Assembly: GCF_004022215.1 (NCBI RefSeq)
Contig: NZ_SAUZ01000034.1
Coordinates: 1-39,352, forward strand
DNA length: 39,352 bases
Source: Paenirhodobacter populi
GTDB taxonomy: Bacteria; Pseudomonadota; Alphaproteobacteria; Rhodobacterales; Rhodobacteraceae
Reading direction: 5' to 3'
Shown here: in pieces, positions 6,169 to 38,320 of the stretch
Layout of the letters: every line of letters starts with the position of its first letter
How positions within the stretch are numbered: the stretch's first letter is position 1
Translations under genes and position numbers: made by a program
The notes under the pieces: model-generated
Databases searched by the model: none
What the model was told of the DNA's origin: nothing
The model's input: only the letters and a program-made list of their open reading frames with translations

Positions 6169-6858
6169 CTAAGCCCTTGAATCGCGCATATATATCATCG
6201 CGTAACCCTCACGGATCGCAGCGGTGATCTGCTCGCGCCTGCATTCGATATGGGCGTGCAGAAGTTCGTAGGCCCGCGCTCCGTCACGCGCGGCAACGGC
6301 CTCGAGGATCTGCGCATGCTCGGCCTGGGTCTGCCGTCGGCGGTCGTTCTCCATCGCAACCCAGCGCACGAAACGGATGCGCGCATTGATGCGGCGCAAC
6401 GTATCGACCAGCGCTTCATTGCCCGAAAGGCCCGCCAGCATGAGATGGAAGGTCTCATCGAGCTGCACGAGTTCATAAAGGCCGCGCTCGGGATCTTCCC
6501 GGCGGCTGACATCGATAAAGGCGCGGATCGGATCGATCTGCGCGGGCGTGGCGCGCTGGATGGCGAGGCCGGTTCCCGCAATTTCGAGCTGAAGACGCAG
6601 CTCGTACAAATCAACGATCTCGTTCACCTCGAGCGCGCGACGATAGAAGCCCTTGCCGGGACGCGAATCGAGGAAGCCATCGGCCGTCAGGCGATTGAGT
6701 GCTTCCCGCAGCGGCGTGCGCGACACGTTGAGCCGCGCGGCGAGTTCGACCTCGTTGATCCGCTCGCCGGGCAGCATGTCGAACCGGATCGCCAGCTCGC
6801 GCAGCTCTTCATAGACACGCTCGACGCTGCTCGATGCGACGGCCTTGATCACCGACAT
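6169..6858 (-). CDS. GntR-family regulator with FCD ligand domain
   Basis: A 229-residue regulator. Residues about 8-70 form the winged HTH ([32 protein letters not shown]), and the rest is an all-helical FCD domain. The FCD metal/ligand residues are visible: Asp and His in LDETFHLML, His in [10 protein letters not shown] and His in [11 protein letters not shown]. The start is set at MSVIKAV, 4 nt after the M24 stop with GGAG upstream; longer starts would overlap the preceding gene. Its position inside the operon suggests autoregulated control by a pathway substrate. A matching palindrome (TCTGTATACAGA, the TGTATACA type seen for several FCD regulators) lies before the first operon gene. Confidence 0.85.
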
Positions 6859-6862
6859 CCCC

Positions 6863-8098
6863 TTAAAGCTCCGCAAACAGGAAGTCGCGGGGCAGGGTCG
6901 TAAATTTCTCCGCCCCCGTTTCGGTGATAACGTAGCAGTCCTCGACCTGGAAGCCCCCGAGCCCCCGGATATAGAGCGGCGTTTCAAGCGCGATCACCAT
7001 GCCCGCCTCCAGTGGCCGGGTCTCCACCGGCGAAAGATAAGGCCCCTGCTCGCCCATGCCGAGGCCCATCGTATGGCCGATATGGCCGCGGGTATACCAA
7101 GGCAATCCATGCGCGCGCACGGCCTCGTGCCCGGCATGGAATACCTCGCACATCGGCGTGCCGGGGCGCAGAAGCGGCTCCGCCGCCGCCATTCCGGCGA
7201 TGACGGCATCGAGGAATTGACGCGCCTCGGACGAAGGCCGGCCGAAGGCAAGCGTGCGGCCGGTGTCGGAGCCGTAGCCATGAATCGAGGTCGCACAATC
7301 GAAGAACACCAGCTCCGCGCCCGTAACCCGCGCTCCCCCGGCGATGGTGGGCGAGATCGCCCCCCCGACCGAAGCCGTCACTCGGGTGCCGAGATATCCC
7401 CCCGTCCCGCGCGCAGCCGCGAAATCAGCGCAGGCCGCGTCATAGATCTGTTTCAATCCAGCCACGTCGCGACCACGCAATGGCGTCGCGGCCAGAATCC
7501 GAAGGCCATGTTCGGCCCCGAGCGTCGCCTCCTTGATACAGGCGATTTCCCACGGCGACTTATGGATGCGCAGATCGGTGAACACCGCTGCCGCTTCGAT
7601 CAGCCGCGCCGCGGGCAATGCGGTCGCAAGCTGCGCGAAGGTCGCGGCGCTGACGGCACCCATCTCGAGGCCGATCCGCCCGCGCTCAAGTCCGCGCGCC
7701 CTCAGCGCCTCGGCGATGCGCCGCATGTTCGCTCCGATGTCGTAGCGCGGGCTGGGTTTGGCGATGGTGGCCTGGGTGCCCGCACGGATCGCTTCGAGAT
7801 CGCCGATCTCAAGCCAGAGCGGAAAGGTCTCGATCTCGGTGATCCGGCTCGCGGCCGCGGCGGCATCGGCCATCCAGGCGGCAATCAGGATCATCGGCGG
7901 CTGCGCCGGATCGGCGGGGATCAGCGCGACCGAGGCGCCGGGAGCGTCGAAATAGTTCTGATATCCGGTGAGATAAAGGAAATTCGCGCCGCCGAAGGCC
8001 AGGATCGCGTCCAGCCCGGCGGCCTGCATCAGGCCGCGCAGCCGATCGAGGTCGCAGGGCCACTGCGCCGGAGAGACGGGAATGGGGGGTGGGGTCAT
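6863..8098 (-). CDS. M24-family metallopeptidase (creatinase/Xaa-Pro peptidase type)
   Basis: A 411-residue pita-bread enzyme with an N-terminal creatinase-like domain (about 20-150) and a C-terminal M24 domain. All five metal ligands can be assigned: Asp in LVFFDCA, Asp in GYGSDTGRT, His in RGHIGHTMG, Glu in VIALETP and Glu in FQVEDCYVI. Members hydrolyse Xaa-Pro peptides or C-N bonds of compounds such as creatine. ATG at 8098 overlaps the hyuB stop by one base (TGATG); a GTG one codon upstream is also possible. Placed between hyuB and gntR, it probably cleaves the linear amide or dipeptide product of the HyuAB step. The substrate is unknown. Confidence 0.8.
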   Translation of the reverse strand: MTPPPIPVSPAQWPCDLDRLRGLMQAAGLDAILAFGGANFLYLTGYQNYFDAPGASVALIPADPAQPPMILIAAWMADAAAAASRITEIETFPLWLEIGDLEAIRAGTQATIAKPSPRYDIGANMRRIAEALRARGLERGRIGLEMGAVSAATFAQLATALPAARLIEAAAVFTDLRIHKSPWEIACIKEATLGAEHGLRILAATPLRGRDVAGLKQIYDAACADFAAARGTGGYLGTRVTASVGGAISPTIAGGARVTGAELVFFDCATSIHGYGSDTGRTLAFGRPSSEARQFLDAVIAGMAAAEPLLRPGTPMCEVFHAGHEAVRAHGLPWYTRGHIGHTMGLGMGEQGPYLSPVETRPLEAGMVIALETPLYIRGLGGFQVEDCYVITETGAEKFTTLPRDFLFAEL

Positions 8099-24669: not shown

Positions 24670-25563
24670 TTACGCGCTTATTGGCGCGGCGCTCTCACCC
24701 AGCCTCGAGACGGCCCACGGCCCCGCATGACCTTTCCGCAGCCAGGCCGCGACCAGTTGGAAACCGCTCTGCGGCCAATCCTTCGGCGTGTCGATCCTGA
24801 CCAGCTCGGCGATCCCAAAGCCGTTCTCCTCCAAATCTCGCAGCCGGGCCCGCGTCGTCAGGTTGGTCAGCGGCGCCAGCCAGACGATGTTCGGGGCGAT
24901 CCTCATCGCATGCTGGCTGAAGACCCGCAGCCGGGACCAGGGCGGGTTCGTCATCACCCAGTCGACCGGCTGGCTCCAGTCCAGGAAATCCCGCCCTTCG
25001 CCGATCTCGCACCAGTGTCGCTCGAGATGCGCCGGAAACCGGTCATGGAACGCGCCCTGCCCCTTTGCCGGATCCAGCACGCTGCCCGTCATCCGGGGCG
25101 CGAAATGGGCTATGATGGCTGCCGCCAAATCCGGCGGCGTCATCACCAGATCCCGCTCGGGCGCATTCGTCGCCGGCACCAGCCCGCCGCGACCGGTGGC
25201 AACCGGGCGCAAGGCGGAACGCAACCCGAGAATGGCAAGGGCACGCACGAGCGTCGCCACCGTCCCGACAAGATCCTGCTCCAGCGCGATGATCGTAGGC
25301 CGACTGCAGCCGACACGGCGCGCCAGATCCGCCTGGCTCAGCCCCCGCGCCCGACGCCGCCCGGCGAGCTCCGAGCCGCCGCCATCCATCTCGCGTGCCC
25401 AGGCCCAGCGCAGATCCAGCACCGCCATCACCACGACGAGCGACCGGATGCTCCCTTCGCCGCGTTCGAGCGCCCGGACCGTCGGCACGCTGACCCCGGC
25501 CGCCTGCGCGACATCGGATTGCGTCATGCCGCGCGCGCGGCGGGTTTCGAGGAGGAGTTTCAT
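24670..25563 (-). CDS. Double-XRE helix-turn-helix fused to adenine-methyltransferase-like domain
   Basis: A 297-residue protein with an unusual layout. Residues 1-52 form an HTH_3 domain (TRRARGMTQSDVAQAAGVSVPTVRALERGEGSI). Residues 66-115 form a second (LAGRRRARGLSQADLARRVGCSRPTIIALEQD). From about 138 a Rossmann-type methyltransferase segment follows: TPPDLAAAIIAHF, motif I VLDPAKGQGAF (162-172), an acidic residue in WCEIGEG, and motif IV TNPPW (205-209), the [DN]PP[YFW] signature of N6-adenine or N4-cytosine methyltransferases. There is no separate target-recognition domain, so the HTHs may give specificity. No restriction enzyme lies next to it. An imperfect inverted repeat and the 8-bp tandem array lie just upstream. 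Confidence 0.7.
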   Translation of the reverse strand: MKLLLETRRARGMTQSDVAQAAGVSVPTVRALERGEGSIRSLVVVMAVLDLRWAWAREMDGGGSELAGRRRARGLSQADLARRVGCSRPTIIALEQDLVGTVATLVRALAILGLRSALRPVATGRGGLVPATNAPERDLVMTPPDLAAAIIAHFAPRMTGSVLDPAKGQGAFHDRFPAHLERHWCEIGEGRDFLDWSQPVDWVMTNPPWSRLRVFSQHAMRIAPNIVWLAPLTNLTTRARLRDLEENGFGIAELVRIDTPKDWPQSGFQLVAAWLRKGHAGPWAVSRLGESAAPISA

Positions 25564-25570
25564 GTCAAGA

Positions 25571-25604
25571 ATCGTTTGCCTTTAAGCCGCAAAAAGCAAA
25601 TGAT
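25571..25604 (-). promoter_or_regulatory. Inverted repeat upstream of the XRE-methyltransferase
   Basis: ATCGTTTGC (25571-25579) and GCAAATGAT (25596-25604) form an inverted repeat with one mismatch, 8 nt before the start codon. It is a candidate autoregulatory operator for the gene's own HTH domains. Confidence 0.45.
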
Positions 25605-25686
25605 TGTTTACATGATATGCGGTGCCTGACGTAGGCGTGCCGCTTTTTTAAGAACCTGGCTGTGGTCGCCACGGGCAGATAGAGTC

Positions 25687-25821
25687 CGTCCAACGGTCCA
25701 ACGGTCCAACGGTCCAACGGTCCAACGGTCCAACGGTCCAACGGTCCAACGGTCCAACGGTCCAACGGTCCAACGGTCCAACGGTCCAACGGTCCAACGG
25801 TCCAACGGTCCAACGGTCCAA
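25687..25821. repeat. 8-bp tandem repeat (GGTCCAAC), about 17 copies
   Basis: Fifteen perfect GGTCCAAC units (25695-25814) are flanked by one copy with a first-base change and a partial final copy. Because 8 is not a multiple of 3, all frames stay open and yield repeating peptides (TVGPLDRW on the minus strand), which are artefacts. Such arrays expand and contract by slippage. It lies about 125 bp upstream of the XRE-methyltransferase start. Confidence 0.95.
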
Positions 25822-26220: not shown

Positions 26221-27087
26221 ATGACCTTAAAAGACACCATGGCCAATGCACTTGAGGCCGGATGGGCCGATGCTGTTCCGTTAAGCTGGAGACAGGAGTT
26301 TGATAATGTTAGTCCAGACTTCACGGCGCACGCACTTAATAAGGTTCAGGAAGGTGAATTTTCTTCACCATATCCGTCACTGTTGCCCGATCAAAATCAA
26401 CGACACCTGTTCCGCGCATTCCGTGGGATCGCTCCAAATCAAGTTCGAGTCTGCGTTATTGGGCAGGATCCATATCCCGAACGGGATCGCGCCACGGGTC
26501 GAGCCTTTGAGGATGGTGCGGCCCACAGCGGTATCGCAATTAGCTTGAGGCGACTCCTTCAATCAGCCGTTACGGTATCGAATCAAAATCAGAAGGCGGA
26601 CGAAAATGCGTCGGGGTGGAGTCTAATCAGAGATGATGCAGATCAATATTTTTCCGAAACAGAGGCAATGACAATGTACTTTGACAGATTGGCAGAAGAG
26701 GGGGTTCTGTTTCTAAACGCTGCTTGGACCTTCACCGAAAGCGCGCCCCTTCCTAGCAAAAAAGAGCTAAAATATCGTCGCGATCGAATTCAGCGCGCGC
26801 ACGCTGCGCTCTGGAAGCCTGTAACTCTGCGGCTAATAAAGCGTTTGGCTGAGAGAGATGATCCACCAGTTTTTCTATTGCTTGGAAAGAAAGCCAAGAA
26901 AATCCTTTCTACGGCCACCAAGCGTGATAAAAAGGAAATTCCCAATGTTTACTGTCCTCATCCAACAGCGAGAAAAGGCGCCTATTTTAATCACCGAAAT
27001 CCTCTCGCTCAAGTAAACGAAATATTGAAGCCTGCAGCAGCAGTTAAGTGGTCTCCGTTTGATGATGAAATCAACGAGCACGCCTGA
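26221..27087 (+). CDS. Family-1-like uracil-DNA glycosylase
   Basis: A 288-residue UDG-superfamily protein. Motif 1, VCVIGQDPYPERDRATGRAF (GQDPYP at 81-86), holds the catalytic Asp and the Tyr that excludes thymine; family 1 normally has GQDPYH. LFLNAAWTF (163-171) corresponds to the uracil-binding Asn motif LLLNTVLTV. HPTARKGAYFNHRNP (247-261) is the minor-groove/His loop (HPSP in Ung). It is longer than Ung (about 225) because of an insert around 118-145. Lower G+C than the flanks suggests acquisition. AGGAA precedes the ATG. Whether it acts in repair or in defence against modified DNA is open. Confidence 0.7.
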   Translation: MTLKDTMANALEAGWADAVPLSWRQEFDNVSPDFTAHALNKVQEGEFSSPYPSLLPDQNQRHLFRAFRGIAPNQVRVCVIGQDPYPERDRATGRAFEDGAAHSGIAISLRRLLQSAVTVSNQNQKADENASGWSLIRDDADQYFSETEAMTMYFDRLAEEGVLFLNAAWTFTESAPLPSKKELKYRRDRIQRAHAALWKPVTLRLIKRLAERDDPPVFLLLGKKAKKILSTATKRDKKEIPNVYCPHPTARKGAYFNHRNPLAQVNEILKPAAAVKWSPFDDEINEHA

Positions 27088-33140: not shown

Positions 33141-33381
33141 GGTCGGGAGGGGGCGCCATCATAAGCCTCCAGCGAATTGAGACGTGAAGTGTAGGTTGCC
33201 TGCTTCCGGGTGAATGATCGCTTGCGTCCAGAAAAGGGGTTCGGCGACATTCCACGCTGTATCAAATTCGAGCGTCGGCTTCGGGGAGTGCTGCAGGGTA
33301 GCAAAACCAAACGGTGGCCGTCCAATATGGGCCGACCTTGACTGCCGGCCCTCACAAGGGCTGAGCAGGCACATCCCTCAA

Positions 33382-33549
33382 TCAAGCATCGGGAGCCGTC
33401 ATTTCCAGCCATTGTACCAGCGCCCGACGGATCATCTCCGGCCGTGTAGGCAAGTCCTTTTCAACGCGCCGACGATCATCAATCGCTGCGATGAGTTCCC
33501 GAGGGAGACGGAGATTTATCGCCTCGGTATCCTTTTTTGGGGGAGCCAC
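33382..33549 (-). CDS. Ribbon-helix-helix protein, 55 aa
   Basis: A short minus-strand gene from a GTG start: APPKKDTEAINLRLPRELIAAIDDRRRVEKDLPTRPEMIRRALVQWLEMTAPDA. The beta strand INLRLPRELI followed by two helices, with TRPEMIRRALVQWL as helix B, is a CopG/RHH fold, a small dimeric DNA binder. An in-frame stop upstream and lack of ATG make GTG 33547-33549 the only plausible start. It is divergent from the 33673 gene; an inverted repeat in the shared promoter region is the likely operator. It may regulate the module to the right or act in partition or TA-type control. Confidence 0.65.
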   Translation of the reverse strand: MAPPKKDTEAINLRLPRELIAAIDDRRRVEKDLPTRPEMIRRALVQWLEMTAPDA

Positions 33550-33571
33550 AGAATTTATCCAATCTCGATAT

Positions 33572-33595
33572 TGACACCATTATTCTAATGTGCCA
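33572..33595. promoter_or_regulatory. Inverted repeat between the RHH gene and its divergent neighbour
   Basis: TGACACCATTA (33572-33582) and TAATGTGCCA (33586-33595) form an imperfect inverted repeat in the divergent promoter region, 22 nt from the RHH GTG. Confidence 0.5.
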
Positions 33596-33672
33596 TATTA
33601 AGCGAGCGAAGGCAAGGGATCCGACCCCCTCGCCTTGCTCTAACCACACTGATCTCGGATAAGGAGACCACC

Positions 33673-34203
33673 ATGGCTGATTTCACGCCTATCACCGTTC
33701 CCGTTGTTTCGGAACCCATCAGCTATTTCCGTCCCTCGCCGCTGAGCGCGCAGTTCACGGCCCTGCTGCCGGTGCTGTCGGCGCATATCGAGGCGGAGCG
33801 CGATCTTGCGCATGTCGACCGGTGGGACGTCGCGTTCATCGACTGGCTCGCGGAAGCCGAACAGACCCGCGCCGACCTGGAAGCCGCGCTGAATACGCTG
33901 TGCGAGACCGAGGTCCAGCGGCGGGAGGACAAGCCGCTGCTGCGGATGGCGATGCTGACCCGCATGATGCTCGCGAGCGAAGATGCGCAGGAGTTCCTCC
34001 AGCTGCACAGCCTGCCCCAGCGGATGCCGTCGATGTTCCGCTGTGCCGGAGATCATCCGGTTGCGGCGCGGACGAACCTCTTGCTGAGCGAAGTGCTGAT
34101 CCGACTCGATGCGCTGGCCTCCCTGCCGGATTATCTCGATCCGATCGAGGTCGAGGCGGAGGCTCCCGTCGCGGACAGCCTCGCCTTCGCCCCGGCGCTG
34201 TAA
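33673..34203 (+). CDS. Hypothetical protein, 176 aa, first gene of AAA/nuclease module
   Basis: An intact, acidic, mostly helical protein (PLSAQFTALLPVLSAHIEAERDLAHVDRWDVAFIDWLAEAEQTRADLEAALNTL) with no recognised domain. AAGGAG precedes the ATG. High G+C and codon use match the following PD-(D/E)XK and AAA/M41 genes, and all three run in the same direction, each with its own strong ribosome site. Function is unknown. Confidence 0.65.
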   Translation: MADFTPITVPVVSEPISYFRPSPLSAQFTALLPVLSAHIEAERDLAHVDRWDVAFIDWLAEAEQTRADLEAALNTLCETEVQRREDKPLLRMAMLTRMMLASEDAQEFLQLHSLPQRMPSMFRCAGDHPVAARTNLLLSEVLIRLDALASLPDYLDPIEVEAEAPVADSLAFAPAL

Positions 34204-34225
34204 ACAGCCCTGACCTTCCCGCCTT

Positions 34226-34276
34226 CTGACCGGTGTCGCTGCCAGCTCCTCTTCGGGGCGAGCGCACGCCGGTCAG
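34226..34276 (+). terminator. Long hairpin after the 176-aa gene
   Basis: CTGACCGG (34226-34233) pairs with CCGGTCAG (34269-34276); imperfect pairing continues inward. It begins 22 nt after the stop codon and has no T-run. Confidence 0.45.
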
Positions 34277-34459
34277 GCCAAATGTTCCGGCACACGCCAA
34301 TCCCGACCAGATTTTCCGTAGCACTCCGAGCCCGTTCAGACCGCACGCCCCGGCATTTTTCAGCCCCCAAAGCTGGATTTTCCACGGTCTCGGACGCCGT
34401 TCAGGCTGCACATATCGGATTTTCCATGACCCCTCCCCCTTCCCAAGGAGTTCCGCTCC
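34277..34459 (+). repeat. Degenerate intergenic repeats (GATTTTCC / TTCAG type)
   Basis: GATTTTCC occurs at 34310, 34376 and 34418, and TTCAG-x-CxGCAC at 34334 and 34400 (66 bp apart). No gene is present before the AAGGAG site of the next gene. Similar elements recur at 35062-35163 and near 39150. Confidence 0.5.
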
Positions 34460-35038
34460 ATGACGTTTCAACCATTGCTCCCCGGGCTGCTGCCCCGGCC
34501 GCCGCTGTGTCTGCCGCCCGGATCGCATCATCTCTGGGCTTTCCCGGACCTGTCGCGCGAAGACCGCTGCCGCCATGCCAAGGCGCTTGGCCTCGCCGGC
34601 GAATGCCTCGTCGACAGCCTCCTGCTGCGCTACGGCCTGTCGGTGATGCGGCTGCCCGAGTTCACCGCCGTCGACCGGCTGATCCTGCATCCCGAGCAGA
34701 TCCTGCGGCTGCAGGTGAAGACCACCACCGCGCGCCAGAACGGTGCCTGGTTTTTCAACGCCCATCATGGCTATGGCCGCTCGCCACAGGGCCTGCGGCC
34801 CTATGAGCCCGATGCGTTCGACCTGCTGGCGCTGGTGGTGCTGCCGGAGAATGCGGTGGTCTTCACTGCTGAACGCCGGAGCCGCCACCGGGTCCGCGAT
34901 GCCGAGCTCGCCATGATCAAGGCCGATCCCCGGCTGAGCCTCGAAGCCGCGTTCTGGTCCTTGGGCCTGTCCGTGCCCGGCCCGGACGGACCAGTTCTGG
35001 GCGAAGCGCTGGAACCGGACGCGCCCTCGATACCCTGA
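34460..35038 (+). CDS. PD-(D/E)XK nuclease-like protein
   Basis: A 192-residue protein. The core reads KALGLAGECLVDSLLLRYGLSVMRLPEFTAVDRLILHPEQILRLQVKTTT: Glu in AGE (48), Asp in VDRLI (72) and Q-V-K (85-87) give the E...D...QxK catalytic pattern of the PD-(D/E)XK superfamily, close to the group-I-intron endonuclease/Holliday-junction-resolvase-like subset. The C-terminal third (DAFDLLALVVLPENAVVFTAE) completes the alpha/beta fold. AAGGAG lies upstream of the ATG. Placed between a 176-aa unknown and an AAA/M41 protease gene, it may be the DNA-acting part of that module. The target is unknown. Confidence 0.65.
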   Translation: MTFQPLLPGLLPRPPLCLPPGSHHLWAFPDLSREDRCRHAKALGLAGECLVDSLLLRYGLSVMRLPEFTAVDRLILHPEQILRLQVKTTTARQNGAWFFNAHHGYGRSPQGLRPYEPDAFDLLALVVLPENAVVFTAERRSRHRVRDAELAMIKADPRLSLEAAFWSLGLSVPGPDGPVLGEALEPDAPSIP

Positions 35039-35061
35039 TCGGCGCCAGACAGATTGGGCGA

Positions 35062-35163
35062 TTTTTTCTGGATCAAGCAGGAACGTATCTGGCTTTTTTC
35101 TGGATCGCGCAGGTTTGGAGCCGGATTTTTTTCTGGACCGTTCAGAGCCGTATCCGTTTTTTT
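35062..35163 (+). repeat. Four imperfect ~32-bp repeats with oligo-T runs
   Basis: Units begin with T6-T7 runs at 35062, 35094, 35126 and 35157, mostly followed by CTGGATC or CTGGACC. The spacing is 31-33 bp. They follow the PD-(D/E)XK gene and may act as serial terminators or as a protein-binding array. Confidence 0.6.
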
Positions 35164-35376
35164 GCGACGCGCCCCGTCACAGAAAATCCGGAGCCACACG
35201 CCGACCTCTCAGGTGGATACCTTCAAAGGACACTGTTTTCGCTGACATTTTGTAAAAAACCGAACGCTCTCGGTCTGTCCCTATCCCGATCTTCCCGCTT
35301 TTTCCCCCACCCCTCACAAAACCCTCTCCCCGGCCCACTCCGGGAAGACCGCCCCCTTTTTCCTCGGAGGTCAGCC

Positions 35377-37731
35377 ATGACGCCGCACCCGACCCAACCC
35401 GTTCCGATGAACACCACCGCGGATACCGCACCCACCCCGGCAACTCTGGCGACCGCATCCACTCCGGCTGCCCCAGCCTCCACGAGGCCCACCTCGCGGC
35501 CGGCGTGGTGGAGCTTCGCCCGCTCGGCGGTCGAACGGCTGCGCCAGCACACCGCCGACAGCGTTGGCACCTGTTTCTCGCCCTTCGAGATGTCCGATGA
35601 CATCGGCGACACGATCCCGGCCTCGCCAGAAGCCCCCAAACCCTCGGTCCTCGAGCTGCTCGGCGAAGGCCCGGGCCTGACCGATCTCCCCGACGAGATC
35701 GCGCAAACCCTGCGCGACGAGGGCGGCGATCCTTTCGCGGTCTCGGTGACCGGGACCGACGCGCCCGCCATTCCGCTCCCCGCCGGCGCCCTGCTGACGG
35801 TGGTCCGCCTCGCCGCCAGCTTCGGCACTGACGGTATCGCGGCGGCGCTGCGCCCGGGCGCGGTCACCGTGTTGCGCGGCGTTCTCCCCGATGACACCGA
35901 GGCCCTGCGGAGTTTGCTGGCCCATCTCCTGCCGCCCGGCTGGCAGGTAAAAAACCCGGTGCGCGGCGTCCGCGTGGGCCCGAACACGCTGGTCTTCCTG
36001 GAGACGACCCGTGACAGCAAGGGCAAGCTCAGCGAGCTGGCCGTCTTCGAACTCCGGCGCAAGATCCGCGACGCGCTGGACAGCGCGACGCCGGTGCTGA
36101 TCGCCCTGCCCCCGGATCTCGACCTGCCGCCGGCCCTGATGCCGCAGGCGCTGGACCAGAGCCGGTTCGTGCCGGTCAGCGCCGATATCCTGATCGCGGC
36201 GCTCTGCGCCAGCCATTCGGCGACGCGGCGGATCGACGAAGAGGCGGTCCGCGCCGCCCTGCCCTCGGAGGTGCTGCTCGCCGATCTGCCGATGCTGGGC
36301 TTTGCCCTCGCGATGCAGGCGAAGACGGCGCGGGCCGTTGCCGAACGGATCGCGGCGATGGTGGCTCAGGCGGCGCCGGGTCCCGACACCGGTCCCTGGC
36401 TCGAGGACATCCACGGCGACACGCCCGCGCTCCGGGCCGCGCGCCAGATCGTGCGCGACCTGCGCCGCTGGAAGACGGGCGAGGTCGCCTGGGCAGACCT
36501 GACCCGCACCCTGCTGCTCTATGGTCCGCCCGGCACCGGCAAGAGCTGGATCGCCCGCGCGATGGGGAACAGCGCAGGCTTCTCGGTGGTGACCGGCACT
36601 TTTGGGCAATGGCAGGCGGCGGGGCATCTCGGCGACATGCTGCGCGAGATGCGCCAGACCTTTGCGGATGCCCGGGCCAGCGCCCCGAGCGTGCTGATCA
36701 TCGACGAGATCGATGCCGTGGGCTCGCGCGAAGGTAGCGACACGCATGGCAGGTCCTATCGGACCCAGGTGATCAACGCCTTCCTCGCCGAGATGGACAG
36801 CATCGCACGCGAAGAAGGCGTGATCGTCGTCGGCACCTGCAACCATCCCGAGTTGATCGACCCCGCCGTGCTGCGGGCGGGGCGGTTCGACATGAAGGTC
36901 GCCCTGCCGCTCCCCGATGCCGATGCGCTGTTCGGCGTGTTCCGGCACGGCCTGCCGGACTGGTCGGAAGCCGTGCTGCGCGATCTGGCGTCGCGCGCCG
37001 TCGGCTGCTCCTCGGCCGATGTCGACGCTGTCATCCGGCAGGCCCGGGCGGCAGCGCGTGGGGCCGGGCGCGACCTCACGCCCGAAGACCTGCGCAAGGT
37101 CTTTGCCCCGCCGCAGGATGCCGCGATCGACCACCGGATCGCGCTGCACGAATGCGGCCATGCCATCGCCTGCGCCGCGCTCGGGATCGGCCCGGTGCAG
37201 CGGATCCTGATCGAGCGCGAGGGCAGCGGCATGACGATGATCGATGCGGCGCCCAAGCACGGCACGCTTTCGGACATGCGGGACCGGCTGGCGCAACTCA
37301 TGGCCGGCCGCGCCGCCGAGCGTCTGGTGCTGGGCGATGTTTCCGCCGGTGCCGGAGGCGGGCCGAACTCCGACCTCGCGTTGGCGACGGGGATCGCCAC
37401 CGCGATCCATACCCAGTTCGGCCTCGGCCTGCACGGCCCCGCCTGGCTTGGTGAGAACGACACCCAGAACCTGCGCGATCCGGCCCTCCGCGCCCGCGTT
37501 CAGCGCCAGATCGAGGACGCCGAGCGCCGGGCCGCGCAGATCCTCACTGCCAATCGCCCCCTCCTTGAGGAGATGGCCGGGGCGCTGATGCAAATCAGGG
37601 ACATGGATGCCGGAGACGCCGGGGAATGGCTGGAGCGGGTTCGGACGGAGGAGGTGGGCCCGGCACCCGAAGATATCTCCACACCCGACAGTGTCGCGAC
37701 GACGGTGACGGAAGGAAGCACTCCTGAATGA
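35377..37731 (+). CDS. Soluble FtsH-like AAA+ ATPase / M41 zinc protease
   Basis: A 784-residue protein with a long N-terminal region (about 1-340) lacking the two membrane helices of FtsH. The AAA+ domain has Walker A GPPGTGKS (383-390), Walker B VLIIDE (439-444) and the arginine-finger region LRAGRFD (499-505). The M41 domain has the zinc motif HECGH (591-595) and third ligand Asp666 in GPNSDLALAT. The pore-loop position normally FVG in FtsH aligns with AAG (WQAAGHLG), so the aromatic substrate-gripping residue is missing. GGAGGT lies before the ATG. It is probably an ATP-dependent protease acting on soluble targets, perhaps partner proteins of this module. Confidence 0.8.
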   Translation: MTPHPTQPVPMNTTADTAPTPATLATASTPAAPASTRPTSRPAWWSFARSAVERLRQHTADSVGTCFSPFEMSDDIGDTIPASPEAPKPSVLELLGEGPGLTDLPDEIAQTLRDEGGDPFAVSVTGTDAPAIPLPAGALLTVVRLAASFGTDGIAAALRPGAVTVLRGVLPDDTEALRSLLAHLLPPGWQVKNPVRGVRVGPNTLVFLETTRDSKGKLSELAVFELRRKIRDALDSATPVLIALPPDLDLPPALMPQALDQSRFVPVSADILIAALCASHSATRRIDEEAVRAALPSEVLLADLPMLGFALAMQAKTARAVAERIAAMVAQAAPGPDTGPWLEDIHGDTPALRAARQIVRDLRRWKTGEVAWADLTRTLLLYGPPGTGKSWIARAMGNSAGFSVVTGTFGQWQAAGHLGDMLREMRQTFADARASAPSVLIIDEIDAVGSREGSDTHGRSYRTQVINAFLAEMDSIAREEGVIVVGTCNHPELIDPAVLRAGRFDMKVALPLPDADALFGVFRHGLPDWSEAVLRDLASRAVGCSSADVDAVIRQARAAARGAGRDLTPEDLRKVFAPPQDAAIDHRIALHECGHAIACAALGIGPVQRILIEREGSGMTMIDAAPKHGTLSDMRDRLAQLMAGRAAERLVLGDVSAGAGGGPNSDLALATGIATAIHTQFGLGLHGPAWLGENDTQNLRDPALRARVQRQIEDAERRAAQILTANRPLLEEMAGALMQIRDMDAGDAGEWLERVRTEEVGPAPEDISTPDSVATTVTEGSTPE

Positions 37732-37742
37732 TCAACTGAACC

Positions 37743-37770
37743 GCCCCGGCGCAGACGCCCGCGCCGGGGC
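37743..37770 (+). terminator. Terminator-like hairpin after the AAA/M41 gene
   Basis: A perfect 10-bp stem (GCCCCGGCGC / GCGCCGGGGC) with an 8-nt loop lies 11 nt past the stop codon; CTCTCT rather than a T-run follows. Confidence 0.65.
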
Positions 37771-37785
37771 CTCTCTGGTGCCGCC

Positions 37786-38320
37786 CATCATCGCCAGGCC
37801 ACCAGGGTCAGGAGCGGCAAAAAAAAATCCGCAGATGATATTTTCCAGGAAAGGGATCGATGAACACATCATCAGCGCAGCCCCATGACGCCTGTAACGC
37901 AATCTTCTGTTTTGCGCGCAAAATGCGTTACGCGCGCTCCGGAAAGGCCAGGATCACCGCCTCATGCCGCAGTCTTCCGGTCCCGGTGCCCGCACCGGAT
38001 ACGCCCCGGGATCAGCCATCATCGCCAGACCGCTCTGGGCAATCTGTAACGCAAAACGCAAGCAGTAACGCAGAGCGCGTTACGAACGCGGGGAATGCAA
38101 AGCACTGTTTTGCGCGCAAAATGCGTTACGCGTGCTCCAGAAAGGCCAGGATCACCGCCTCATGCCGCAGCCTTCTGGTCCCGGTGCCCGCACCGGATAC
38201 GCCCCGGGATCAGCCATCATCGCCAGACCGCCAGGGTCAATCCGTAACGCCAAACGCGGGCAATAATGCAGGGAACGATAGCACCGTTGTTTTTCCCGGA
38301 TGCGTTACGGACCTGCTCCA
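37786..38320. repeat. Direct repeats (198-bp period) with GTAACGC/GCGTTAC boxes
   Basis: Two near-identical blocks of about 140 bp (about 37905-38045 and 38103-38243) are offset by 198 bp, and part of the unit (ATCATCGCCAG-CC-CCAGGGTC) also appears at about 37789. Eight GTAACG/CGTTAC boxes lie at 37894, 37924, 38046, 38065, 38076, 38122, 38244 and 38301, in both orientations. Each block begins with the perfect palindrome TTTTGCGCGCAAAA (37910-37923, 38108-38121) next to TGCGTTAC. The 189-codon frame that spans it is considered non-coding. It could be an iteron/origin region or a regulator-binding array. Confidence 0.8.

Follow-up and report, generated by a model that had tools for sequence, protein, structure and literature searches.

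A four-gene cassette in Paenirhodobacter populi

The window analysed here, a stretch of 39,352 nucleotides (positions 1 to 39,352 of contig NZ_SAUZ01000034.1, hereafter C27) from the 4.78-Mb, 91-contig draft genome of Paenirhodobacter populi, carries a cassette of four genes that combines a small regulator, a nuclease and an ATP-dependent protease. The first gene, on the reverse strand (33382..33549), encodes a CopG-like ribbon-helix-helix (RHH) protein of 55 amino acids (Pfam RHH_1, E 7e-6). The other three lie on the forward strand: gene 2 (33673..34203) encodes a fast-evolving protein of 176 amino acids, all-helical in its AlphaFold2 model; gene 3 (34460..35038) occupies the nuclease slot and is PD-(D/E)XK-like according to the conservation of its residues E48, D72 and Q85-x-K87; gene 4 (35377..37731) encodes P0004, a 784-residue fusion of an AAA+ ATPase (AAA, 4.7e-31) with an M41 zinc protease (Peptidase_M41, 3.6e-15). 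The divergent RHH gene is separated from gene 2 by a promoter-like TTGACA-17 bp-CATATT (33571..33599, forward strand), read directly, with similar sequence in relatives and putatively serving the gene 2 operon, and by a structured RNA leader (33603..33672, forward strand).

The original prediction, made from the sequence alone, had placed the same four genes, and open reading frames (ORFs) and Pfam searches confirmed their coordinates and strands as well as the RHH, AAA and M41 domains. The uniformly high G + C content that it described is not found, the genes ranging from 57% (RHH) through 65.5% (gene 2) and 68% (nuclease) to 71% (protease) and the intergenic gaps from 47 to 62.5%. The strong ribosome site attributed to each gene exists for gene 2 (AAGGAG), the nuclease (AAGGAG) and the protease (GGAGG) and is not evident for the RHH gene (ATCGAGATTGGATAAATTCTGTG). 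The source genome harbours a second cassette on contig C36, whose protease is 93% identical and which matches the window at 85-91% from position 33328 up to the end of that contig, and a third relative of the protease, damaged by two TAG and located at the end of contig C49.

Conservation of the cassette among Rhodobacterales

The four genes are a conserved unit in Rhodobacterales, in which the order seen in the window is kept, and this held from three query directions. Starting from the protease alone, 29 places in 23 of 295 genomes of the family were retained at E <= 1e-60 and all their neighbourhoods were inspected, including that of the window, three of them being truncated where a contig stops (L038, L052, L056). 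A nuclease gene lies directly upstream of the protease in 23 of the 26 uncut neighbourhoods: 17 GIY-YIG (that of L042 being a fragment at a contig end), five PD-(D/E)XK and one CoiA-like. Starting from the PD-(D/E)XK nuclease (PDD), profile A1 matched 26 places at E <= 0.001 in 20 of the 390 genomes of the order, two of these genomes weakly; all but the weakest of these places (G130, 7e-4) were inspected, 25 in total. The protease gene is downstream in 23 of the 24 loci without a contig end (L093 lies at one), as a fragment only in L104, and was not found downstream in L110 (PDD match E 3e-14). From the GIY-YIG side (GIY), profile A2, some rows of which begin before the likely start codon, matched 49 of the 390 genomes at E <= 1e-10. 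Among 38 loci inspected, two (L148, L162) end at the nuclease, and the protease follows in 35 of the 36 with sequence beyond it. The genes are thus not mostly independent of each other, their order is fixed and, as detailed below, the catalytic residues of both nuclease and protease are kept. With profile matches in 49 (GIY) and 20 (PDD) of 390 genomes, the cassette is common in the order, and the libraries used give it no name.

An RHH profile match is present in 55 of 85 AAA loci collected via AAA, PDD or GIY, which do not constitute an unbiased set and some of which are cut by contig ends. The GIY gene also occurs in 16 plasmid records, all from Rhodobacterales genera; on 8 of 12 plasmids inspected it sits beside the protease (L006, L007, L008, L010, L184, L186, L187, L218). 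Among 299 genomes sampled across the phylum, a single one, belonging to the family of the window, had a match to the GIY profile, and in a genome from a different family of this class (L220) a weak PD-(D/E)XK match precedes the protease. Three single-protein scans of viral contigs returned no relative; phage matches to GIY came from two Vibrio phages, with 29% identity over 61%.

An interchangeable nuclease slot

The nuclease was presented as a fixed component in the original prediction. As judged from domain matches and conserved residues, its slot is interchangeable and holds a predicted GIY-YIG nuclease with zinc sites, a PD-(D/E)XK-like nuclease as in the window, or a CoiA-like protein. 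GIY and PDD never occur together in any of the 85 collected loci. In a FastTree phylogeny of 79 proteases, the GIY and PDD labels need 10 changes, and the strongly supported branches (SH-like support only, no bootstrap) force at least 8 changes for PDD and 11 for GIY versus all others. The protease of the window itself groups, with a support of 99, with the copy from its own genome and those of three GIY-bearing loci (L006, L010, L150).

The assignment of gene 3 to the PD-(D/E)XK superfamily, already proposed, is sustained by the pattern E...D...(Q/E)xK, with E48 found in 19 of 21 family rows and D72, Q85 and K87 in all 21. It has no Pfam match at cut-off and no sequence match in PDB, and matches PHROG 5018 (E 2.9e-6), a family without assigned function. 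The GIY proteins share Y, K, G, R, E and the E of EIY in 54 of 54 sequences, S in 53 and H in 51, and each of ten zinc-ligand-like C/H positions that were checked is present in all 54. Their Pfam matches are all below cut-offs (MUG113 0.002 and T5orf172 0.0095 for L008, 0.049 for L006, none for L059); the domain match, with an endonuclease match in PHROG 681 (3e-7), and the residues Y, R and E led us to count them in the GIY-YIG superfamily. The putative third kind was found in L053, where a protein encoded between gene 2 and the protease (6411-7946) matches DUF7830 below cut-off (3e-4) and, more weakly, CoiA_nuc and DUF6035.

Two observations concern the surroundings of this slot. The heptamer CCCGTTC occurs in 15 of 53 spacers between gene 2 and the nuclease (34204-34459 in the window) versus 4 of 336 background pieces; of the repeats reported earlier between the genes, this heptamer was the only element for which a conserved counterpart was found in relatives. 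On the Thioclava plasmid L009 (3397-4961, 9829-10416), an AAA-M41 gene has a Tox-REase-5/Imm52 pair nearby, and a frame located 3' of the protease reads like the start of a GIY-YIG protein, without Pfam support.

A candidate soluble AAA+/M41 protease

The catalytic sites of gene 4 comprise a Walker A motif at 383-390 (K389), E444, R503, the zinc-binding HECGH at 591-595 and D666. Over the 79 rows of the family alignment, which include the window and its copy, Walker A is present in 78, the Walker B pattern in 76 and HExxH in 77, in agreement with the conservation expected by the original prediction; K389 is conserved in 78 of 79, E444 and R503 in 79 of 79 and D666 in 77 of 77. The near-invariance of the catalytic residues in nuclease and protease suggests that selection has kept both enzymes active-looking. 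No clear transmembrane segment was found in gene 4 by a crude hydropathy scan, the highest 19-residue value being 1.59 at 131-149; 25 of the 79 family rows reach 1.6 or more, with a maximum of 2.04. As far as hydropathy tells, the AAA+-M41 protease is therefore soluble.

FtsH has the same fusion of AAA to M41, HExxH and a conserved acidic residue, for which D666 would be the counterpart as third-ligand candidate. It differs by its N-terminal membrane anchor, where gene 4 has no clear transmembrane segment by hydropathy; gene 4 also falls below the NCBIfam equivalog cut-off for FtsH (178 versus 600 bits) and belongs to an operon with a nuclease. Residues 341-767 of P0004 match FtsH chains in PDB, and its additional ~340 N-terminal residues lie outside the PDB matches listed. 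A degenerate AAA domain at 136-340 is compatible with the secondary structure of this region; the model is poor (mean pLDDT 49.3) and the hhalign probability is 3%. The matches of P0004 in PADLOC 2.0.0 concern the AAA domain only (IetA, TRIP13 and mad8 models).

Gene 2, a fast-evolving helical protein

The AlphaFold2 model of gene 2 displays a helical core at residues 21-150, with block pLDDT values of 86-96. No match was found for gene 2 in Pfam at cut-off, in PADLOC, or in PDB at E <= 0.001. When loci are binned by the identity of their proteases, it is the least conserved gene of the cassette in all bins below 70%, whereas the highest bin has the RHH protein less conserved than gene 2 (0.647 versus 0.69). 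Comparing loci with different and with the same nuclease type, gene 2 identity is nearly equal in three bins (0.201/0.207, 0.241/0.248 and 0.279/0.294), so gene 2 is probably not an antitoxin specific to the nuclease type. Partial correlations, computed after dropping L143, L145 and L041, were 0.61 with the protease and 0.21 with the nuclease over 13 PDD loci, and 0.36 with the protease and 0.35 with the nuclease over 30 GIY loci. Gene 2 thus appears to follow the protease and largely not the nuclease type; the role of type-specific antitoxin, which we had considered, is largely unsupported by the identity comparison, with the correlation among GIY loci as a reservation. The role that fits best is probably that of a sensor or adaptor of the protease.

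The RHH protein and a structured RNA leader

The RHH protein is a probable autoregulator. Downstream of the putative promoter, a structured RNA leader that had been overlooked at about 33603-33672 consists of a long hairpin, a CUAACCACA box and a second hairpin enclosing the ribosome site, followed by AUGGCU. Leaders were located by script in 65 loci, a further 9 yielding none. Removal of two near-copies and one short leader left 62, and 52 of these have the second hairpin, of the GAUC...GGAGAUC type, over the ribosome site. In a plain alignment of 59 leaders, without L051, L161 and L165, RNAalifold returned no pairs, which by that method speaks against a structure. Because the hairpin arms slip in such an alignment, we compared the pairing of each leader's own 5' and 3' arms with that of arms taken across loci. 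Over 48 thinned leaders (three more were without an anchor, and some visibly misplaced anchors were kept), own arms pair better (-11.3 versus -8.0 kcal/mol) and none of 2000 permutations was as low; a leader's own 3' arm was the best of the 48 in 9 cases and among the top three in 18. This comparison argues that the stem is kept by compensating changes.

The best Rfam match at the window's leader is RF00043, an R1162-like (IncQ) RNA, which shares the layout of a hairpin, CUAACCAC, a hairpin over the ribosome site and AUGGCU. The match is sub-threshold (25.3 bits versus a gathering value of 55), as it is in L095, L092 (same genome), L093 and L096, for which values of 33.9, 31.5, 30.8 and 27.4 bits were obtained, their order being unassigned; RF00043 was not among the matches in the leaders of L041, L099, L164, L165 and L148. 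Unlike RF00043, whose consensus lies at the junction of repressor F and RepA in IncQ-type plasmids (3 of the 5 records listed, of 156), the leader precedes gene 2 and scores 25-34 bits. The likeness may reflect kinship or convergence.

Movement of the cassette

Several genomes contain copies that span little more than the cassette. The near-identical copies of G374 share a block of 4299 bp at 99.6%, the limits of which lie 74 bp before the stop of the RHH gene and 35 bp past the protease; those of G413 share 4657 bp at 99.98%, extending 410 and 124 bp beyond, plus an unlike match of 376 bp (67%). Two Antarctobacter plasmids have 5.1 kb in common at 96%, extending ~0.8 kb beyond the protease, and two short pieces besides, and G013 holds two copies that are 93% identical over 3.7 kb. 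Near-identical copies of this extent suggest that the cassette seems to travel as a unit. By eye, the G413 copies end in GGGCAA...TTGCCC, a 6-bp inverted end, and the G374 copies adjoin sequence reading like a tRNA 3' end with a tyrosine integrase; neither termini common to the two pairs nor a target duplication was seen in them.

Of the 75 loci whose right flank exceeds 1.5 kb, 26 encode a relative of serine recombinases downstream of the cassette (phmmer), those of L007, L176 and L097 being weak or cut off. A DnaA-box-like box resembling TTATCCACA is found in 24 of 67 right flanks versus 1 of 54 left flanks and 4 of 246 background pieces, and in 21 of the 26 loci with a recombinase (hand count) it stands in one orientation ~230-400 bp before the large serine recombinase frame, for example beyond the copied block of L144 and L145. 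We considered TTATCCACA as an end of the element and rejected it, as it precedes the recombinase gene in those 21 loci and as the two G413 copies carry it outside the copied block, in differing sequence. By eye, the last bases of the window look like the sequence that precedes the serine recombinase of each G413 copy, which suggests that a recombinase may follow the end of the contig.

Genomic setting of the cassette

The ORFs within 4.5 kb of the cassette were scanned in 64 right flanks (the 145 largest of 152 ORFs) and 48 left flanks (139 ORFs), without the duplicates L143 and L145 and without L146, L009, L053 and the window. In Pfam, the right flanks yielded serine recombinase domains in 12-13 ORFs, four relaxases and two phage integrases, and the left flanks three phage integrases and three DUF927. 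PADLOC matches at E <= 1e-8 fall in 139 families for the left flanks and 40 for the right. The 25 families listed per side include PycC (2e-173), MzaE (2.5e-167), LmuB (3.8e-166), Drt8 (1.5e-156), short-Ago (8.6e-145), PDC-S01 (3e-91) and NsnA (8e-68), each on one ORF; the E2, reverse transcriptase, PD-T4-2 and SoFic models are also listed, mostly on one ORF each, and L142 has a TIR-NLR match in its flank. Around 20 chosen positions on contigs of the same genomes, a scan of 133 of 149 ORFs, six having been dropped by hand on account of a residue limit, gave 10 families: mad3 (5 ORFs; also near cassettes), mad8, WYL (2.5e-56), GlgB, QueC, ZorB/MotB and caspase are among these, mostly probable housekeeping look-alikes. 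These neighbours support a defence setting for the module, and the cassette lies in the kind of defence neighbourhood expected of anti-phage systems, relative to a control not matched for mobile DNA.

The module had also been described as ending in an array of GTAACGC boxes. The boxes are real, with eight exact copies of GTAACGC/GCGTTAC at 37894..38308 and 10 in the window versus 2.1 expected, an excess largely due to a 195-bp unit repeated at 87% (37888-38280). The module does not end in them: the array is not conserved with the cassette, and the k-mers listed as enriched downstream of other cassettes do not include GTAACGC. As a component of the system it was rejected, the repeat unit being present at three places in the source genome, all beside its two cassette copies.

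A possible modular immune system and its alternatives

We favour, with a probability of about 0.55, the reading that the cassette is a modular unit of defence type, which plasmids and integrative elements carry in Rhodobacterales. The more specific proposal, to which we give somewhat less than even odds, is that of an undescribed modular immune family in which a soluble AAA+/M41 protease and a fast-evolving helical adaptor would command interchangeable DNA-cutting effectors (GIY-YIG, PD-(D/E)XK, CoiA-like and perhaps the metallophosphoesterases of Hyphomicrobiales), with the RHH repressor and the RNA leader as a check, the whole being moved between elements as one cassette. What is swapped and what is kept designates the nuclease as the likely effector and gene 2 with the protease as the likely sensor. 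The RHH protein and the leader would keep the expression of the cassette low, and gene 2 and the AAA+-M41 enzyme would form the recognition unit, to which gene 2 would contribute the variable part, as sensor or adaptor. When the cell is infected or foreign DNA enters, the protease might remove a negatively acting factor (a protein of the invader, the RHH protein or even gene 2), upon which the operon and the nuclease could become active and the nuclease could cut the invading, or the host's own, DNA. This order of steps is rather doubtful. The protease may control the RHH protein, as suggested earlier. If immunity is the true function, FtsH-type proteolysis would be a new principle of sensing or release in bacterial defence, and the swapping of nucleases predicts that recognition should depend on gene 2 and the protease, irrespective of the nuclease with which they are combined.

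Several points weigh against a defence cassette of this design. Recognised nucleases are missing in 3 of the 26 uncut loci found via the protease (L054, L055, L058); the protease of one GIY locus is a fragment (L149) and that of another (L168) is absent from the available stretch. Four of the 12 plasmids inspected (L185, L188, L189, L190) carry a GIY cassette without protease, each with an RHH gene, a full-length GIY match and a gene of the size of gene 2, which the gene 2 profile recognises in L185 alone; this argues against the protease as an obligate brake on the nuclease. Gene 2 covaries with the GIY nuclease, as given above, and in the 50-70% bin its identity is 0.405 between loci of different nuclease type (6 pairs) versus 0.461 within the same type (7 pairs); it could also be an inhibitor instead of a sensor. 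The positions of the flank control were chosen by hand, mostly on large contigs, and the family counts in the flanks are exaggerated because one defence gene matches several PADLOC models. Finally, the vicinity of defence genes fits addiction or mobility cargo as well.

An addiction module, in which gene 2 or the protease would hold a nuclease toxin in check, loss of the element would lead to self-killing and plasmids and islands would so be stabilised, would account for the GIY gene on plasmids, the recombinases nearby, the small RHH regulator and the RNA leader. Its RHH gene is divergent, and not co-directional with a small toxin gene as in type II toxin-antitoxin systems, and at 55 residues its product is almost wholly RHH domain; four genes with an ATP-dependent protease are also unlike the classical pairs, the GIY nuclease persists without the protease and gene 2 is largely independent of the nuclease type, unlike a cognate antitoxin, a point tempered by the partial correlation with GIY. 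Altogether this explanation appears unlikely. We consider it quite improbable that the cassette constitutes a small mobile element of its own, whose nuclease would open target DNA for homing or transposition while the AAA protease remodels the complex. GIY-YIG and PD-(D/E)XK folds do serve homing and Tn7-type enzymes, and the cassette-sized copies in G374, G413 and the Antarctobacter plasmids, with the inverted ends of the G413 pair, would suit such an element; against it, neither common termini nor a target duplication was seen by eye in the G374 and G413 pairs, and the downstream serine recombinase of 26 loci could account for the movement. The control of an adjacent integrase or of plasmid replication by the protease or nuclease would match the downstream recombinase with the TTATCCACA-like box before it and the resemblance of the leader to an IncQ replication RNA. 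Such a role is very improbable, given that 49 of the 75 loci lack this recombinase in the available flank, that the G374 copies stand beside a tRNA-like 3' end and a tyrosine integrase and that the box goes with the recombinase gene.

Relation to known defence systems

As the original prediction stated, a named system with this composition is not at hand: neither PADLOC 2.0.0 nor the full-text literature searched (few subscription papers, no bioRxiv preprints) yielded one, or an immune system with an M41 protease at its core. Apart from the matches of the P0004 AAA domain, PADLOC gave a weak match of one GIY protein to PDC-S57 (E 0.037). The anti-phage system IetAS associates the AAA ATPase IetA with the subtilisin-like protease IetS. 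The cassette resembles it by an AAA of the same broad class, IetA being the best PADLOC match of P0004 (7e-26), and by the presence of a protease. It differs in that this match covers the AAA domain only (83.7 bits versus a cut-off of 510), the protease is M41 and fused, and a nuclease, an RHH protein and gene 2 are added; no subtilase match was found by Pfam among the four genes of the window. SNIPE (PMC13190303) is a single membrane-anchored protein with DUF4041, whose GIY-YIG nuclease acts as an anti-phage effector and is toxic once the membrane anchor is removed. The GIY protein of the relatives, in contrast, has zinc sites and sits in a multi-gene cassette, the window lacks a GIY gene, and DUF4041 was not found in a Pfam scan of three GIY proteins.

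Related loci and other features of the window

Related AAA-M41 genes of Hyphomicrobiales plasmids have a metallophosphoesterase gene adjacent or one gene off in the four loci viewed (L214:2156-7042, L215:3536-6348, L216:3509-6231 and L217:3323-6579), like the cassette associating the protease with a nearby partner gene. The partner follows the protease in three loci, and in Methylorubrum it directly precedes it and occurs again two genes after. Unlike the cassette, the 9-kb stretches inspected have no match to the RHH, gene 2, GIY or PDD profiles. These pairs hint at a wider class. One of the Hyphomicrobiales AAA-M41 loci lies ~3 kb from a CBASS cyclase gene.

Elsewhere in the window, a separate piece of ~1 kb (24694-25701) is 92% identical to C36:7468-8477, on the contig with the second cassette; it contains a 333-aa frame for which no Pfam match at E 0.001 was found. 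A protein of the uracil-DNA glycosylase superfamily (1.9e-8) is encoded at 26221-27084, ~6 kb upstream of the cassette.

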